Below are positions 1 to 24,745 of a stretch of 26,016 nt of DNA, piece by piece. A model generated the notes under the pieces. The model worked only from the letters and a program-made list of their open reading frames with translations. It had not been told where the DNA came from and ran no database searches. How positions within the stretch are numbered: position 1 is the first letter of the stretch; each line of letters opens with the position of its first letter. Where the stretch lies: positions 1 through 26,016 of the IMG/VR virus record IMGVR_UViG_3300043446_000264. One strand, given 5' to 3'. This stretch comes from a virus. The translations under genes were made by a program, and so were the position numbers.

Positions 1-1216
1 CGGTGCGATATGGGGCTTGCTGCGCGTTGATGATGTCAAACAACTCGCGTTGTTGCCTCATCTGATCCAGCGCCGTTTGCCGCTGCAACTCTGCTGCTCT
101 GTTTGCGGCATTTGCGCTGAGAGAGCCGCTAAATAGCGATCCAAGACCAGACAGCAATCCTGCAAGACCGGTTCCCGTCGACAACCCACCAAGCAAGCCG
201 CCAAGTCCACCGCCAACGCCGCCGCCTCCGCCGCCACCCGTACCGCCACCGACGCCGCCACCCGTACCGCCACCCGTACCGCCGCCCGTACCGCCGCCCG
301 TACCGCCTCCCGTACCGCCGCCCGTACCGCCTCCCATTCCAGTGCCCCCGGTGGGCAACAGTGTGCCTCCTGACCCTACTTTGACGCCAGCATCCCCAAG
401 ACCGCCAAGAGTGGTCAGTCCACCCAGGCCCGTCATCACATTTGTGCCAGTTACGGTTGCCCCAAGCGGCAAACCGGTCAGCGGGTTAAAGCCTGCCAAA
501 GTGCCAGCACCAGGCAATACCAATCCACCAGCGGTCATCAATGCGCCACTTCCACCAACGCCGCCCGTTAAATTAAGTCCTGACCCAAGCGTGGTTGCAA
601 GACCTTGACCGCCGCCCATATAGCCAAGGTTTGTGCCTACACCACCAGTGATGCCTTGACCGGCGTTCATCAAGTCAAGGTTTGCGCCCAAATAATCGGT
701 CGGCAACCCACCGCCTAGACCAGTTGAGCTTAGGCCGGTCGTGGTGATGTTTGGCCCACGCAATCCTGTGCCTTCAGCGCCTCTAAGTCCATAGTCAAAC
801 CCACCGCCTGCGCCACCACCACCCGTGGTCGCTGCTTCCGCGCCGCCAGTCAAATCAGCGCCGCCGAATGCGCCTTGCAATCCCGCAGACAGGGCTGCAG
901 CGCCCAAAACGCCTCCTATGCCCTTCAAGGATTCATTTGGGTCGACGGTATAAGTATGGCTAAATTGGCCGCCTGGGGTAAAAACGTTGTATTGATTGCT
1001 GCCTGTTTCTTGTGCATACCCCGTCAATTGCGGCGCACCATAGATAATCTCGCCACTTTCGCCGCCGTAGCCTAAGATTGGCCGGTCATACAGCGCACTA
1101 ACACCGCCGCCCAGGTTAACGCTCATGCCCTGTTCATTGGACATAGCGGCTTGCGCCTCACTCGGATTGATGACTCGATTGACCGCGCCTTCAATGCTGT
1201 CGATTAAATCTGGCAT
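1..1216 (-). CDS. Glycine-rich virion protein, possible DNA-ejection or tail-hub protein (3' end beyond window)
   Basis: An open frame of 405 codons runs without a stop from the ATG at 1216 to the window edge; an AGAAAAGAA purine stretch just upstream can serve as a weak ribosome binding site. The start reads MPDLIDSIEGAVNRVI. The middle is extremely rich in Gly, Thr, Leu and Ala, with a (GGGT)n tract at about residues 294-327 encoded by a 12-bp DNA repeat. The last visible residues turn into a charged, probably helical segment (RAAELQRQTALDQMRQQREL) followed by APYR. Phage proteins with this plan (Gly-rich N-terminus, then a helix and an APYR/APFR-like motif) are common after P22-type neck genes and are usually called structural. 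It follows gp10-like and a 78-aa gene, where P22 has gp26, gp14 and its ejection proteins, so an ejection or tail-hub role is inferred. No catalytic motif is visible. Confidence 0.7.
   Translation of the reverse strand, partial: MPDLIDSIEGAVNRVINPSEAQAAMSNEQGMSVNLGGGVSALYDRPILGYGGESGEIIYGAPQLTGYAQETGSNQYNVFTPGGQFSHTYTVDPNESLKGIGGVLGAAALSAGLQGAFGGADLTGGAEAATTGGGGAGGGFDYGLRGAEGTGLRGPNITTTGLSSTGLGGGLPTDYLGANLDLMNAGQGITGGVGTNLGYMGGGQGLATTLGSGLNLTGGVGGSGALMTAGGLVLPGAGTLAGFNPLTGLPLGATVTGTNVMTGLGGLTTLGGLGDAGVKVGSGGTLLPTGGTGMGGGTGGGTGGGTGGGTGGGTGGGTGGGVGGGTGGGGGGGVGGGLGGLLGGLSTGTGLAGLLSGLGSLFSGSLSANAANRAAELQRQTALDQMRQQRELFDIINAQQAPYRT
237..336 (-). repeat. 12-bp tandem repeat encoding a GGGT tract
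   Basis: About eight imperfect copies of a 12-bp unit, cccgtaccgccr on the plus strand, lie in frame within the glycine-rich protein. The variable base falls at a codon third position, so nearly every copy reads Gly-Gly-Gly-Thr. Copies at the low-coordinate end degenerate to GGGV and GGGG. Such a repeat can change length by replication slippage without shifting frame. Confidence 0.85.
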
Positions 1217-1230
1217 TTCTTTTCTCCGAT

Positions 1231-1467
1231 TCAGACGTCGTAGTACGGCACTTTTTGTGGCCTGCCATTGACCGTGATGGTGATGAATCCCACCGGCGCT
1301 GCAGGCAAAGTTGCCGATCCTGCAGTGGCCGTTGATGTGCTGGTGAAGTTCAGCAAATTAAGAAAGAACTGCTGCCATGCCCGCGTCGGACGGTTTGTGG
1401 CCCTGTCCAAGAACTCGGCTTGCGGGTATGGGTTGTTCTGCGAGACTGGCGAGATTCCGGTAGACAT
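1231..1467 (-). CDS. Small structural-type protein, function unknown
   Basis: Encodes 78 residues starting [16 protein letters not shown]. Two parts can be seen: an N-terminal segment with a Trp/Phe-rich amphipathic stretch (TRAWQQFFLNLL, about residues 28-39), and a C-terminal beta-type ending VGFITITVNGRPQKVPYYDV. Short proteins ending in a similar (G/F)xxTVxVNGxxxKxPYY motif occur in tail gene clusters of many phages. It begins at the last base of the gp10-like gene and ends 14 bp before the glycine-rich virion protein, so it is co-transcribed with tail genes. A minor tail or tail-tip role is inferred from position only. Confidence 0.75.
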   Translation of the reverse strand: MSTGISPVSQNNPYPQAEFLDRATNRPTRAWQQFFLNLLNFTSTSTATAGSATLPAAPVGFITITVNGRPQKVPYYDV

Positions 1468-3458
1468 CAGTTATCCCCCTGCGTGGCTTTCAAATTCGCA
1501 GACACAATGACCGCTTTTACAGGATCGCTTACCACCACCTCGAACACGCGATCCCGCGCCATGCCAAGTCGCCGCCAAATGGCTCGGTTCTTGTACTTTC
1601 CTTGCTGCCCAATGGTTACCCAATGTTCGTTAGACCATGTGCTACCGCCATCGTTTGACCACCGCAGCATAGCCTGCGGATATGTCGTAGTGTCTTGAAT
1701 GTTGATGGTTGACACTTCGCCGAGATACAAAATTTCGTTTGGCCCAACAGTCAAAGATTCACTTGGGTAAATGGTGTACGGCGATTGGATGGTCGAAGGC
1801 TGAATTGCGCCCGTCTGTATTGACAGTCCCGTTGTGCCAACTCCTGGCTGAAACTGAATCTGGAATTCGTCAAAATACTGCCGCTGCAGATCGGCCACCA
1901 AATGCGGAGCGCGGCGAAGTCTGCGGATTTCTTGCCCGTCATCGGTGTAGTTTTGCCGATCCAGCATGTAGACCTTGCCGTTTTCGTAGTCTCCAACTAG
2001 CACCATTCCTTGAAACAGCGCACAGCAGTTGCCTCGGTGTCTCTCGTAAACGTTGTCATTGTTTACATATAGCCACTTGTGCCACATCTGGGTAGCAATG
2101 TCGTACACCCAAGTGAGATCAATTGACGGGAAAGTCACCACATAGCACTCGTGGCCTTCTAGCTGATATGTCCACGCAATAGCATCTTCTACGTTTTGAC
2201 CCGTCAGAGTGTTCTCAACGGCATGGGTTGAGATGCGCTGCGGGATGTACCCGTTCATCTGCATGATCTGCGCTTCGCCGCGATTGTTGCGGCTTACATA
2301 CGCAAACGAATTGCCCAATCGAGCCACAGAAAACACTGCAGCAATGCCGTGTTGGGTTGATGTACCGGGAATGCGCTGAAACGGGAATGGCGTCAGTCCC
2401 GCATCCACCCACACCTCGGAGGACGTTTCGCCCAGCAGGTATACCTCTCGGTGGTCAACAATCAGCGACACCAAGTTGTCCGGGCCACCATCCTTTAGTC
2501 CATAGCTCAAGGCAGGGGAAATCGGACTCAGAAAGTCAGACGATCCCCATTTTTGTGTGCCTGGATCGTTGTAAACAAAGTAATTGTCGATGATGTCAAC
2601 GGTGTTTGCGCCCGAAAACGCCCCGTCAGACGATGGAATTTGGGTGAAATTCAGTGCGTAGATGGTCGTGCTGCCCACCGTTTGCGAACTGCTGATGGTG
2701 TACGTTCCTGCGCCGCCTGAGCCGGAACCAAACGACACAATCATCGTGTTGGCAGCGATTCCTGTGCCTTGGATGGTCTGCCCAAGATACAGAGTGCCAG
2801 ATGACACCGCACTCACAGTCAATGTCGTGCCGGAAATGCTGCCGGTTACCACTGCGCCAACGGTAACGGATGACAAAGACTGAGACACCACGGTTTGCGA
2901 GATGTTGACCGTATATGTGCCCGTGCCACCCGATCCTGTGCCAAGCGCGGTGATGACCGTTTCATTTGAAACACCCACGCCAAACACTTGCTGCCCAACT
3001 GCTAATGCGCCCGTGGACACGCTGCTGACCGTTAATGTTGTGCCGGAAATGTCTCCCGTAAACACTGCCGTCGCAGGCGCAGAAATCCTCCAGGTGTACC
3101 GGTATGCGCCGTCAACAATATAGACGTTGACTCCGTTATCGGTGATGCCAACCCGTCCGGTGGAGGTATTTAGAAACCCGACAATTGCGGGCGTCAAATT
3201 GGCGGTCAGGACATAAACGTAAGGCCCACACACCACCACGCACTGCTGGCCACCAGAAACCGTGCGGATACCCCGCACTTCTGCGTAATTCAGGACTACT
3301 TTAGTGGTCAGGCCTGGGGTTGGGTAAAGCGCGACCACCCCGCGCTGACCCGGTTGTTTGTTTGGGTCAACTTCGGGGAAGAAATTGATGCACTCCTGGG
3401 CATCCTGGTAAATGCTTGGGGCTTCGTAGGATGGGCCGACAAAACCGAAATCAGGCAT
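1467..3458 (-). CDS. P22 gp10-like packaged DNA stabilization (neck) protein
   Basis: Encodes 663 residues. In P22, gp10 binds below gp4 under the portal and closes the head after packaging. Family features seen: an N-terminus of the type [20 protein letters not shown] with [10 protein letters not shown] at about residues 23-32, the [20 protein letters not shown] segment at about 279-298, a repetitive beta-rich body, and a C-terminus containing [21 protein letters not shown]22 gp10 is about 470 residues; much of the extra length here is two tandem copies of an inserted domain (residues about 132-197 and 203-268) placed between YRYTWRIS and [11 protein letters not shown]. The ATG lies inside the last codons of the HNH gene, with AAGGAAGAAGG upstream as ribosome binding site. 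Identification is confident from motifs and context. Confidence 0.9.
2655..2852 (-). repeat. Inserted beta-type domain, copy 2 (within gp10-like)
   Basis: Encodes residues about 203-268 of the gp10-like protein: [19 protein letters not shown], then [15 protein letters not shown], then [20 protein letters not shown]. It aligns end to end with the copy at 2868-3065 and with the copy in the gp4-like gene at 4647-4853. The shared frame is TGxIxGxxLTVxxxxxG, a GQ or GM turn, GTGI, T.I, GxGGxGTY, QT. Parts of the DNA are still similar between copies (both gp10 copies keep gtgccggaaatg). Confidence 0.8.
2868..3065 (-). repeat. Inserted beta-type domain, copy 1 (within gp10-like)
   Basis: Encodes residues about 132-197 of the gp10-like protein: [54 protein letters not shown]. 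Same domain as the neighbouring copy and the one in gp4-like. The repeat sits in a loop, since the flanking family sequence (YRYTWRIS before, [11 protein letters not shown] after) appears uninterrupted once both copies are removed. Confidence 0.8.
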
Positions 3459-22153: not shown

Positions 22154-22653
22154 TATCCTGCGTCCTTAATGATGTTCTCGAAATGATCTTCAGTAATCTT
22201 GTAATGCTCGGGAAGCTGGCATTTGGCGTCGCGGTGCTGGCTCACAGCGATTGAATTGTCTGGCAGGACATAAGACACGGTGTTGTGAAATTCCCTCATG
22301 TCATACACCGATTCGTAAATGCCGAGTGCGCTTTCCGTGGCCCACTGCCAATCGTCCAGAAGCTCGCACACGCTGTCCATTGCCAGTTGCGCCCGTTTGC
22401 CAATGATGGTGTTGCGCTTGGGCTTGAGTAACCAGTAACCCTCGTAACTGGTCGGCAGCGTGAACCCAGACCGGACGATCTTTTCTTTGTAGATCAATCC
22501 CAGACCCTTGCGTTCCTGTCTCACGATTGCCTCGGCGTTTTCTTTTGCCAGCAATTCGCGCTTGGCTTTCAGCGCCCGTTCTTTTGCGGCTCTGAATTTT
22601 TCTGCGGCAAACCCTGCGAATCCGGGCGGTAATAGGTAATGTTTTCTGTTCAT
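22153..22653 (-). CDS. Hypothetical protein between ERF and exonuclease genes
   Basis: Encodes 166 residues. N-terminus MNRKHYLLPPGFAGFAAEKF, then a long basic helix (about residues 20-50: RAAKERALKAKRELLAKENA), then SGFTLPTSYEGYWLLKPKRN, and a C-terminal alpha/beta half with ESVYDMREFHNTVSYVLPDN and SIAVSQHRDAKCQLPEHYKI. No motif recognised. ATGA overlap with ERF and TAATG with the exonuclease gene. This tight coupling suggests a recombination accessory role, as P22 abc genes have beside erf, but no similarity to Abc proteins is visible. Confidence 0.8.
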   Translation of the reverse strand: MNRKHYLLPPGFAGFAAEKFRAAKERALKAKRELLAKENAEAIVRQERKGLGLIYKEKIVRSGFTLPTSYEGYWLLKPKRNTIIGKRAQLAMDSVCELLDDWQWATESALGIYESVYDMREFHNTVSYVLPDNSIAVSQHRDAKCQLPEHYKITEDHFENIIKDAG

Positions 22654-23222
22654 TTCTGCAGCTCCGCTTTGCGTTTGTTCTTGGCCACGATGATCTTGGC
22701 CTGCAGAACCTGGTCGCCAACCGTAAGACCGTAGGCCTCTTTGTAGAGGTCTTTTAGCTCGTCCTCAGTCTGTGCGGCTTCCATCGCTAGGATCAGGTCG
22801 GCAACCTTGCTGGCCACCTTTTCGTTGGCAGGCTGACTGATGGCCGGCTTGAGCTTGGCGGCGTTTCCGTCATCATCTTCCGGTGCGATACCGCACGCTG
22901 CCATCAGGCTGTAGCGGCGTGCGTAGGTTAGCGCCGATCCGTACCCCTGCGGATCTTGTTTGGCCGCGGGAACGTGCAGCTTGCCGGCGCTGTAGATTTC
23001 ACCGGATTCGTGAACAAACACGGTTTCCACAATCACCCCGTCTTGGCACTCATGCATCTGCTGGATCAGGGCGATGCCGTTGCTGTTTAGGCTGTCAATC
23101 ACTGCCTCCACACACGCAGCCAGATCCGCATATTTGCTGCGGAAATGGGGGTTGGTGCTGGACTTCAGTGCTGGCCCGAAGGCCTTCTGTGCTTTCACTA
23201 GACTGCTTGCAATGTTCTTCAT
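22650..23222 (-). CDS. erf: ERF-family single-strand annealing protein
   Basis: Encodes 190 residues. Binds and anneals single-stranded DNA; the P22 Erf type. KNIASSLVKAQKAFGPALKS, then NPHFRSKYADLAACVEAVID and SLNSNGIALIQQM are the family's N-terminal pattern (NPxFxSKYAxLxxxxxxIxxxLxxxGLxxxQ), followed by ETVFVHESGEIYSAGKLHVP, and the conserved KQDPQGYGSALTYARRYSLM then AACGIAPEDDDGNAA. A helical C-terminus (about 130-190) follows. The ATG at 23222 is chosen over the in-frame TTG at 23234 because GAGGAACATT fits as its ribosome binding site. Confidence 0.92.
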   Translation of the reverse strand: MKNIASSLVKAQKAFGPALKSSTNPHFRSKYADLAACVEAVIDSLNSNGIALIQQMHECQDGVIVETVFVHESGEIYSAGKLHVPAAKQDPQGYGSALTYARRYSLMAACGIAPEDDDGNAAKLKPAISQPANEKVASKVADLILAMEAAQTEDELKDLYKEAYGLTVGDQVLQAKIIVAKNKRKAELQK

Positions 23223-23264
23223 AATGTTCCTCAATTTGGACTGTTTGGTAATACTGCTCTTGGC

Positions 23265-23489
23265 TCATTTCACACGCTCAAGGTGGACCTTCTTCTTGTC
23301 GTACTCGGCCAGGATGGAATCCACTTCCTCCATTGCTGCGTTCAGTACGCCCACCAGCTCGCGGACCTTAGCGTTTAAAAGACCTACTTGGTAGGCCAGC
23401 CTGTCGGTCTGGTCGGCCACGCCCTCGCGGTAGTGTTGGCGGGCAATTGAGTCAATCGTGCTGATGATGGTTTCTGCGTTGGGTTTCAT
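23265..23489 (-). CDS. Small coiled-coil early protein
   Basis: Encodes 74 residues from the ATG at 23489, which has AGGAGA upstream. KPNAETIISTIDSIARQHYR, then a long helix RLAYQVGLLNAKVRELVGVL and NAAMEEVDSILAEYDKKKVH. It resembles a simple coiled coil. A longer form from the ATG at 23558 (23 more residues; AGGGAGG upstream) is possible, but that extension runs across the conserved mini-gene in another frame, so the short form is preferred. Family not recognised. Confidence 0.65.
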   Translation of the reverse strand: MKPNAETIISTIDSIARQHYREGVADQTDRLAYQVGLLNAKVRELVGVLNAAMEEVDSILAEYDKKKVHLERVK

Positions 23490-23551
23490 TTGCTTTCTCC
23501 TATGGGTTTCCATCCAAATCTGCGCCAGGTCGCCTGTACGTCGGTCTGCAA
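23486..23551 (-). CDS. Hidden mini-gene with the conserved TDVQATWRRFGWKP peptide (start uncertain, possibly frameshifted)
   Basis: This frame encodes QTDVQATWRRFGWKPIGESK and ends in a TGA that overlaps the ATG of the next gene (ATGA). It could start at TTG 23551, 11 nt after AGGGAGG. Alternatively it starts at the ATG at 23558, which has ideal spacing to that site and overlaps the previous stop as ATGA; then one base must be removed or skipped at the CCC run (23553-23555, complementary to ggg in the plus strand) to reach this frame. The peptide matches the C-terminus of the 62-aa protein at 24000-24188, with 6 of 7 base differences synonymous and the seventh Arg/Lys, which indicates selection on the protein. 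Function unknown. Confidence 0.45.
   Translation of the reverse strand: MQTDVQATWRRFGWKPIGESK
23505..23547 (-). repeat. 43-bp diverged direct repeat, copy A
   Basis: Matches 24025-24067 at 36 of 43 positions. It encodes the TDVQATWR(R)FGWKP motif in the mini-gene frame. Confidence 0.85.
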
Positions 23552-23554
23552 GGG

Positions 23555-23818
23555 TCATTCTGCCTCCCTAGTGGCTGCAACGTCCTCCAGGATGTAATCC
23601 TGAATTTTCTGGGTAAGCTCTGGGGGAAATAATTTTCCCTTCATGTGTTCATTCCTAAGCCACCCGTCCAGACCCTGCCACAACCAGCACCGCTCGGGGT
23701 TCGGCACATGAGCCATTGCCCACATGAAGGCCAGAGCATCGGAGAGATTCCGAAAGTCTCGATGCGAATGAAATGAATGGGGGTCAAACCCCATATGTAC
23801 GCGATAACCTGTTCTCAT
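23555..23818 (-). CDS. Hypothetical early protein
   Basis: Encodes 87 residues: RTGYRVHMGFDPHSFHSHRD, then FRNLSDALAFMWAMAHVPNP, RCWLWQGLDGWLRNEHMKGK, a helical end with QKIQDYILEDVAATREAE. It is Trp/His-rich, alpha-type and soluble. AAGG precedes the ATG, which overlaps the upstream stop as ATGA. Reading past its TGA stop leads in frame into the mini-gene peptide, so an ancestral fusion or stop readthrough is conceivable. Family not recognised. Confidence 0.7.
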   Translation of the reverse strand: MRTGYRVHMGFDPHSFHSHRDFRNLSDALAFMWAMAHVPNPERCWLWQGLDGWLRNEHMKGKLFPPELTQKIQDYILEDVAATREAE

Positions 23819-24003
23819 GGTCTGCCTTTAGAGTCGAGCGCGGCACGGCGCAGGGTTTCCATTTCGTCCTCATATTCTTCGGGTATCAGCTCGGCGTTCA
23901 ACGCATCAAGTTTGGCTGCGTCAGCATAGGCTGCGTCGATTGCGTCAATCTCGGCCTTAAACGCAGCTTCCTGCTGTTCGGTCATGTTGGGATGCCATTT
24001 CAT
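23815..24003 (-). CDS. Small acidic early protein
   Basis: Encodes 62 residues: MKWHPNMTEQQEAAFKAEID followed by AIDAAYADAAKLDALNAELI and a very acidic PEEYEDEMETLRR segment. Helical and strongly acidic. AAAGGA lies 7 nt before the ATG; ATGA overlaps at both ends. Small acidic early phage proteins often inhibit host proteins or mimic DNA, but there is no direct sign of this here. Confidence 0.65.
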   Translation of the reverse strand: MKWHPNMTEQQEAAFKAEIDAIDAAYADAAKLDALNAELIPEEYEDEMETLRRAALDSKGRP

Positions 24004-24188
24004 GCTGCTGTCCTTTCAGCTAAAGGTTTCCATCCGAATTTGCGCCAGGTTGCTTGCACATCCGTCTTTGCCGCTGGCGTGTAGGCAAAAGACGGGTCTA
24101 GGATTGATTTCGGAGTCGTTCGAGGTGGTTCTGCAACTTTGTAGTCATCAGATCGTCGGATTGGTAGAACGTTGCGCTTAGTACCCAT
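24000..24188 (-). CDS. Small early protein with C-terminal TDVQATWRKFGWKP motif
   Basis: Encodes 62 residues. A basic N-terminus (MGTKRNVLPIRRSDDYKVAE), then TTPKSILDPSFAYTPAAKTD, and VQATWRKFGWKPLAERTAA. The (S)xLDPxFxYxPAxxTD(I/V)xxT(F/W) pattern recurs at the C-termini of small early proteins in many phages. GAGGGA precedes the ATG at good spacing. The first 91 nt overlap the 60-aa gene upstream in another frame. Role unknown. Confidence 0.7.
   Translation of the reverse strand: MGTKRNVLPIRRSDDYKVAEPPRTTPKSILDPSFAYTPAAKTDVQATWRKFGWKPLAERTAA
24025..24067 (-). repeat. 43-bp diverged direct repeat, copy B
   Basis: Partner of 23505-23547; encodes the end of the 62-aa protein (TDVQATWRKFGWKP). 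Confidence 0.85.
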
Positions 24189-24280: not shown

Positions 24281-24384
24281 ACCAGTACGTCCAGAATGAT
24301 TGTGATGATGCCGGCAGCACATGCCGCCCAAATAACATAGTCAATACGGCGCATCGGGGAGTTTGTCGCGTTGCTGTCTTGCAT
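24268..24384 (-). CDS. Tiny single-span membrane protein
   Basis: Encodes 38 residues: MQDSNATNSPMRRIDYVIWA, then a hydrophobic helix (about residues 16-36: YVIWAACAAGIITIILDVL), ending VWKP. AGGAG lies 8 nt before the ATG. The basic pair MRR before the helix suggests a cytoplasmic N-terminus. Too short for usual gene callers. Function unknown; such proteins in early operons sometimes act on the host membrane or on superinfection. Confidence 0.55.
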   Translation of the reverse strand: MQDSNATNSPMRRIDYVIWAACAAGIITIILDVLVWKP

Positions 24385-24448
24385 AGTCTTGCTCCTGTTT
24401 GGGTGTCCAAGGAATAGGCCCGCCGGGTGGCGGGAACGGCCAGGTCAT
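24341..24448 (-). CDS. Tiny Pro-rich early protein
   Basis: Encodes 35 residues: MTWPFPPPGGPIPWTPKQEQ then DYARQQRDKLPDAPY. The ATG overlaps the upstream stop as ATGA. The PPPGGPIPWTP(K/E)Q start is reminiscent of tiny phage proteins with a W-P-rich beginning and a short helix. No separate ribosome binding site is evident. It overlaps the next gene by 44 nt. Confidence rests on the coupling and non-random composition. Confidence 0.5.
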   Translation of the reverse strand: MTWPFPPPGGPIPWTPKQEQDYARQQRDKLPDAPY

Positions 24449-24653: not shown

Positions 24654-24682
24654 AATGTAAGCCTGCTTAATGCTGCCGTCAA
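24654..24682 (-). promoter_or_regulatory. Candidate leftward early promoter (PL-like)
   Basis: On the minus strand TTGACG (24677-24682), a 17-bp spacer and TACATT (24654-24659, 4/6). Operator 1 lies in the spacer and touches the -10 box, so a bound repressor would block RNA polymerase. The start would be near 24647, giving a leader of about 35 nt. Confidence 0.55.
24658..24669. promoter_or_regulatory. Operator site 1
   Basis: TAAGCCTGCTTA: perfect inverted repeat TAAGC-CT-GCTTA, one of three copies in the divergent control region. It overlaps the leftward promoter. Confidence 0.75.
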
Positions 24683-24703
24683 CAACTAAATTGCAAAAGA
24701 GTG

Positions 24704-24715
24704 TAAGCCTGCTTA
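24704..24715. promoter_or_regulatory. Operator site 2
   Basis: TAAGCCTGCTTA, identical to site 1, 46 bp away. It lies upstream of the Cro-like gene, about two helical turns (21 bp) from site 3. Confidence 0.75.
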
Positions 24716-24724
24716 GTTGTGTCG

Positions 24725-24736
24725 TAAGCCTGCTAA
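24725..24736. promoter_or_regulatory. Operator site 3
   Basis: TAAGCCTGCTAA, one mismatch in the second half-site. It ends 9 bp before the ATG of the Cro-like gene and overlaps its likely -10 box, so binding should shut this gene off. Confidence 0.7.
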
Positions 24737-24739
24737 ACT
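24734..24739 (+). promoter_or_regulatory. Possible -10 box for a leaderless cro-like transcript
   Basis: TAAACT (4/6 match to TATAAT) ends 6 bp before the ATG at 24746, so transcription would start at or next to the start codon. No good -35 box lies at 16-18 bp. There is no ribosome binding site before the ATG, and an in-frame stop (TAA 24734-24736) excludes an upstream start. Confidence 0.35.
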
Positions 24740-24745
24740 GTCGGC

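Follow-up and report, generated by a model that had tools for sequence, protein, structure and literature searches.

A repeated peptide in a phage genome probably marks the insertion of two genes at the core of a small conserved gene

The window analyzed here, a viral DNA stretch of 26,016 nt (positions 1 to 26,016 of IMG/VR record IMGVR_UViG_3300043446_000264), carries a 14-residue peptide twice, in copies designated A and B. We consider it highly probable that recombination placed a two-gene segment, encoding proteins of 62 and 87 aa, at the core of a small phage gene, and that copy A represents the displaced 3' end of that gene. Judged from sequence searches, the repeated peptide appears to be the conserved core of a widespread and apparently undescribed small phage protein. 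The relevant features of the window are as follows.

22650-23234, minus strand: ERF single-strand annealing protein (Pfam ERF, 9e-22; PHROG 2324, 1e-43)
23265-23489, minus strand: 74-aa gene, coiled-coil-like; the ATG here is also the start in its relatives, where it directly follows the motif gene
23486-23551, minus strand: copy A, open frame from TTG to TGA, probably the last ~18 codons of a family gene (TDVQATWRRFGWKPIGESK), as judged from HMM, comparison with the closest relative L137 and removal of the repeat unit
23493-23547, minus strand: direct repeat, copy A side, 55 nt, from the repeat search
23497-23501, minus strand: AGGAG, probable ribosome-binding site of the 74-aa gene, 7 nt before ATG 23489
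23555-23818, minus strand: 87-aa ORF, proposed inserted gene 2, absent from L137
23563-23569, minus strand: AGGGAGG ahead of ATG 23558 and TTG 23551
23815-24003, minus strand: 62-aa acidic ORF, proposed inserted gene 1, absent from L137
24000-24188, minus strand: copy B, ORF of a complete 62-aa family member (HMM score 62 bits)
24013-24067, minus strand: direct repeat, copy B side, 55 nt, 80% identical to 23493-23547 at a spacing of 520

The two copies of the repeat differ almost only at synonymous positions

The initial annotation had described a repeat in which nearly all differences are synonymous, and this repeat is real: positions 23505-23547 and 24025-24067 lie 520 bp apart and are identical at 36 of 43 bases, and a repeat search extends the match to 55 nt. 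A chance origin was ruled out by shuffling, as a comparable repeat at offsets of 50-3000 occurred in 0 of 20 shuffled windows and once in the real window. The reported pattern, in which six of seven differences are synonymous and the remaining one is an Arg/Lys exchange, holds, but the total does not: over the 14 whole codons there are eight differences, seven of them synonymous. The earlier count was one short because the quoted stretch ends one base before the end of the last codon. When eight changes were placed in the 14 codons in a selection-free simulation, at most one amino-acid change resulted in only ~0.02% of cases, and both sequences, or their ancestors, were therefore selected as protein.

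The peptide is the core of a widespread small phage protein family

A relatives search in IMG/VR yielded nine small proteins sharing the core of copy B, TD[VI]xxTWR[RK][FY]GWxP. Using a degenerate DNA pattern that encodes D[VI]xxTWR[RK][FY]GW, we matched at least 120 viral stretches, and the family core is present on more than 100 viral contigs. The same scan of 257 billion bases of bacterial and archaeal genomes returned five stretches, among them family-like genes in Limnobacter (L134) and Prosthecobacter (L133); the other three look like chance matches. In an alignment of 49 members, six columns of the core (D, T, W, G, W, and P) are invariant, whereas the N- and C-terminal parts of the proteins are highly variable. 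These data bear out the earlier proposal that the peptide is under selection and portable, as it recurs in many small phage proteins with differing ends. Both copies in the window carry the core motif, and the family HMM scores copy B at 62 bits and copy A at 46 bits.

Members of the family also share an aromatic element ahead of the core (e.g., DPxFxYxPAA). Among 91 distinct members, 78 fit the pattern used for this element and the remaining 13 have an aromatic residue nearby, so that all 91 keep one ~5-10 positions before the core. Copy B includes this element, with the repeated peptide forming its C-terminal core. The shortest other member found (L114, ~30 aa) has kept it as well. Genomes typically carry a single family gene: one real motif copy was present in 49 of the 50 records searched whole and none in the remaining one, these records having been counted as deposited and often being fragments. 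The window follows this rule, with one complete motif gene and one fragment.

The family was unmatched in Pfam, NCBIfam, and PDB, and its peptide strings were absent from the papers searched. Two PHROGs were each weakly matched by just one of the 49 members. With no curated-model match beyond these, the family looks undescribed in Pfam, NCBIfam, PHROGs, and PDB. The genes downstream of the motif gene vary, with ERF as the biggest group, and point to no single function. AlphaFold2, run on copy B and 49 relatives, predicted a chain that is mostly extended, apart from a short helix at the core (residues 44-50), at a pTM of 0.28, which is too low to warrant a fold search. The analysis thus brings to light a strongly conserved small-protein family in the early/recombination region of environmental phages. 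Its invariant TW-R-x-x-GW-x-P core makes it attractive for functional testing.

Relatives carry one undivided gene where copy A lies

Relatives of the locus were gathered via the downstream ERF annealing protein and via the 74-aa gene located between copy A and ERF. The closest relative, L137 (IMGVR_UViG_3300047557_000428), has an ERF protein 77% identical to that of the window and one neighboring gene at 92%, shares the motif, 74-aa, and ERF genes, and is colinear with the window to either side of the insert. It has no insert but a single intact motif gene of 58 aa, whose 3' end extends over the ATG of the 74-aa gene. The window has the 62-aa and 87-aa ORFs between these two genes, and copy A stands directly before the 74-aa gene. 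The N-terminal half of copy B is colinear with the L137 motif gene and its front resembles the front of that gene, while the tail of copy A (PIGESK) resembles the L137 tail (PINES).

The 74-aa search gave 11 loci with a motif gene upstream, representing about three independent lineages (L137; L138/L223; the L076 group). At these loci the distance from the motif stop to the start of the 74-aa gene is -1 to +17 nt, and an insert is present in 0 of 11. In other ERF-linked phages, the motif gene adjoins ERF itself. Copy A thus stands where the intact gene of relatives ends. When the two cores in the window are joined at matching bases, exactly 520 bp drop out and the product, MGTKRNVLPIRRSDDYKVAEPPRTTPKSILDPSFAYTPAAKTDVQATWRRFGWKPIGESK, is an intact 60-aa family protein with an ATGA junction that runs into the 74-aa start. 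Removal of this repeat unit thus restores the gene arrangement of the relatives, as expected for an insertion that duplicated a gene end, and raises the alignment score to L137, which now aligns over the junction, from 249 to 435. Taken together, the sequence comparisons suggest that a family gene was severed and that copy A is most likely its 3' end, still in the native position.

Copies A and B are as distant as genes from two phages

The cores of copies A and B were compared over 39 bases, of which 32 are identical. When the 113 distinct family cores are paired, those pairs that differ by no more than one amino acid have a median of 31 identical bases out of 39, and the core of L049 is nearer to each copy (34/39 to A and 35/39 to B) than the copies are to each other. 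By this measure, the two copies are as far apart as genes from two different phages. Because they are no closer than that, the synonymous pattern most likely stems from selection on two intact ancestral genes and not from present translation of copy A. The initial annotation had taken the pattern as a sign that copy A is translated, a conclusion that does not follow from differences of normal between-phage size. More generally, two copies may differ at synonymous sites only without both being translated; genes that were selected apart and then joined give the same pattern.

Alternative readings of copy A

The sequence details given earlier for copy A were accurate. It follows the stop codon of the 87-aa ORF, is open from TTG 23551 to the TGA at 23488-23486, which forms an ATGA overlap with the ATG of the next gene at 23489, and AGGGAGG is present at 23569-23563, before ATG 23558. 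The open frame, the upstream AGGGAGG, the ATGA coupling to the 74-aa gene, and the almost exclusively synonymous differences from copy B could indicate a functional mini-protein of ~18-23 residues with an active core, which would start at TTG 23551 or, if the contig contains an extra base, at ATG 23558. We regard this as distinctly unlikely. The synonymous pattern is family-wide and of the usual size between phages, an inherited gene end would be expected to show the ATGA overlap, and the TTG is 11 nt from the Shine-Dalgarno sequence. Moreover, the frame has a stop just upstream, four codons before QTD, copy A lacks the aromatic residue kept in all 91 other members checked, and even the shortest other member found is longer. 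Joining ATG 23558 to copy A would take a one-base change. Translation of copy A by itself, as a micro-protein consisting of little more than the family core peptide, is very unlikely; if real, it would make the core alone a working, portable module. The proposed mini-gene, whether translated by itself or joined by a frameshift, is thus unsupported, and copy A is better read as a severed 3' end at the position of the relatives' intact gene. As sequenced, ATG 23558 is in frame with the 74-aa gene and opens a 97-aa ORF, in which the copy A stretch, read in the other frame, would form a 23-residue N-terminal extension of the 74-aa protein. AGGGAGG precedes this start, which overlaps the stop of the 87-aa gene. 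In relatives of the 74-aa protein, however, the alignment begins at Met 23489, with the end of a motif gene or other sequence upstream, and AGGAG stands 7 nt ahead of that ATG; we consider the extension very improbable. The same AGGAG (23501-23497) suggests a reason for the persistence of the DNA: as it lies inside the tail of copy A, this tail has probably been retained as the carrier of the ribosome-binding site of the 74-aa gene.

Two other histories would also account for the repeat. An old duplication of the motif gene within the genome, followed by decay of one copy and arrival of the flanking genes in between, would explain two copies in one genome with the same orientation and frame; because third positions are near saturation, the 39-base comparison has little power against such a duplication if it was kept under selection. 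Such a duplication nevertheless seems unlikely, given that 49 of 50 records hold one copy, that each copy matches other phages better than its partner, and that only the 3' end is doubled, within a 520-bp unit that is exactly removable. It is also possible that the order was reversed and that the relatives lost the two genes by recombination between the repeats. This would need several losses, and parsimony favors insertion.

A proposed route of insertion

In the simplest reading of a core and tail on both sides, a two-gene insert split the motif gene at its core. Copy B would then consist of the native front joined to an equivalent core and tail, and copy A would be the displaced native 3' end, still directly before the 74-aa gene. 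The two cores would derive from separate genes, each intact and under selection and probably belonging to different phages. Two motif genes may have recombined at their conserved core, which would have joined the native front to an incoming tail and the genes following it. A second join would have linked the native core to the end of the 87-aa gene. We infer from the comparisons the order of events, a foreign donor, which of the two cores is incoming, and the reason for retention.

According to Pfam and PHROG matches, the phage encodes ERF and a YqaJ-type exonuclease, the kind of pair that recombines short, imperfect homologies in other phages. Motif genes also look mosaic, because that of L138 begins with MEQYYQTVQLEE, a peptide that the window encodes in another small ORF (g23095). 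Pfam, PHROG, and relatives searches found no relative of the 62-aa ORF, with weak matches only in PHROG, and no convincing relative of the 87-aa ORF. The sole match in searches for a donor of the inserted genes was a weak one to the 87-aa ORF in G011 (E 6e-4 over 37 residues), and no genome with the order motif-62-87 was found in the relatives searches. The window is the one insert-bearing genome known.

Other features of the region

A 57-aa ORF with the start peptide MSQEQYYQTVQIEEHYEEH (23095-23268, minus strand) overlaps the ERF start in another frame; several relatives have this start peptide ahead of ERF, and the L138 motif gene has it as its N-terminus. Upstream of copy B, a 35-aa ORF, MTWPFPPPGGPIPWTPKQEQDYARQQRDKLPDAPY (24336-24443, minus strand), is conserved, with 40 matches among the collected loci, and occurs, unannotated, in Limnohabitans phage DC33. 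It is a better candidate for a missed micro-protein than copy A. The Limnohabitans match and the family member in a Limnobacter alexandrii contig that is probably prophage (L134, 984-1226, minus strand) hint at Burkholderiales hosts. Three copies of a GTAAGCCTGCTTA-like repeat (24656-24741) lie just upstream of a divergent 51-aa ORF (24746, plus strand). By eye, this ORF looks like a Cro-type repressor, and the repeats are probable operators.

Comparison with known systems

Phage mosaicism and moron-type insertions are known in lambdoid and other tailed phages. The window resembles such insertions in having foreign-looking small genes between otherwise colinear genes, with junctions at gene borders, but differs in that its junction lies inside a short conserved coding core and has left a 55-nt imperfect direct repeat. 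Integrative elements that insert into the 3' end of a gene regenerate that end through attachment-site duplication. Likewise, the gene in the window has gained a replacement 3' end and the original survives at the far side of the insert, whereas the repeats are just 80% identical and the insert consists of only two small ORFs. Neither an integrase nor a tRNA gene was found. Homologous exchange by the phage's own ERF/YqaJ-type recombination appears more plausible than attachment-site integration.
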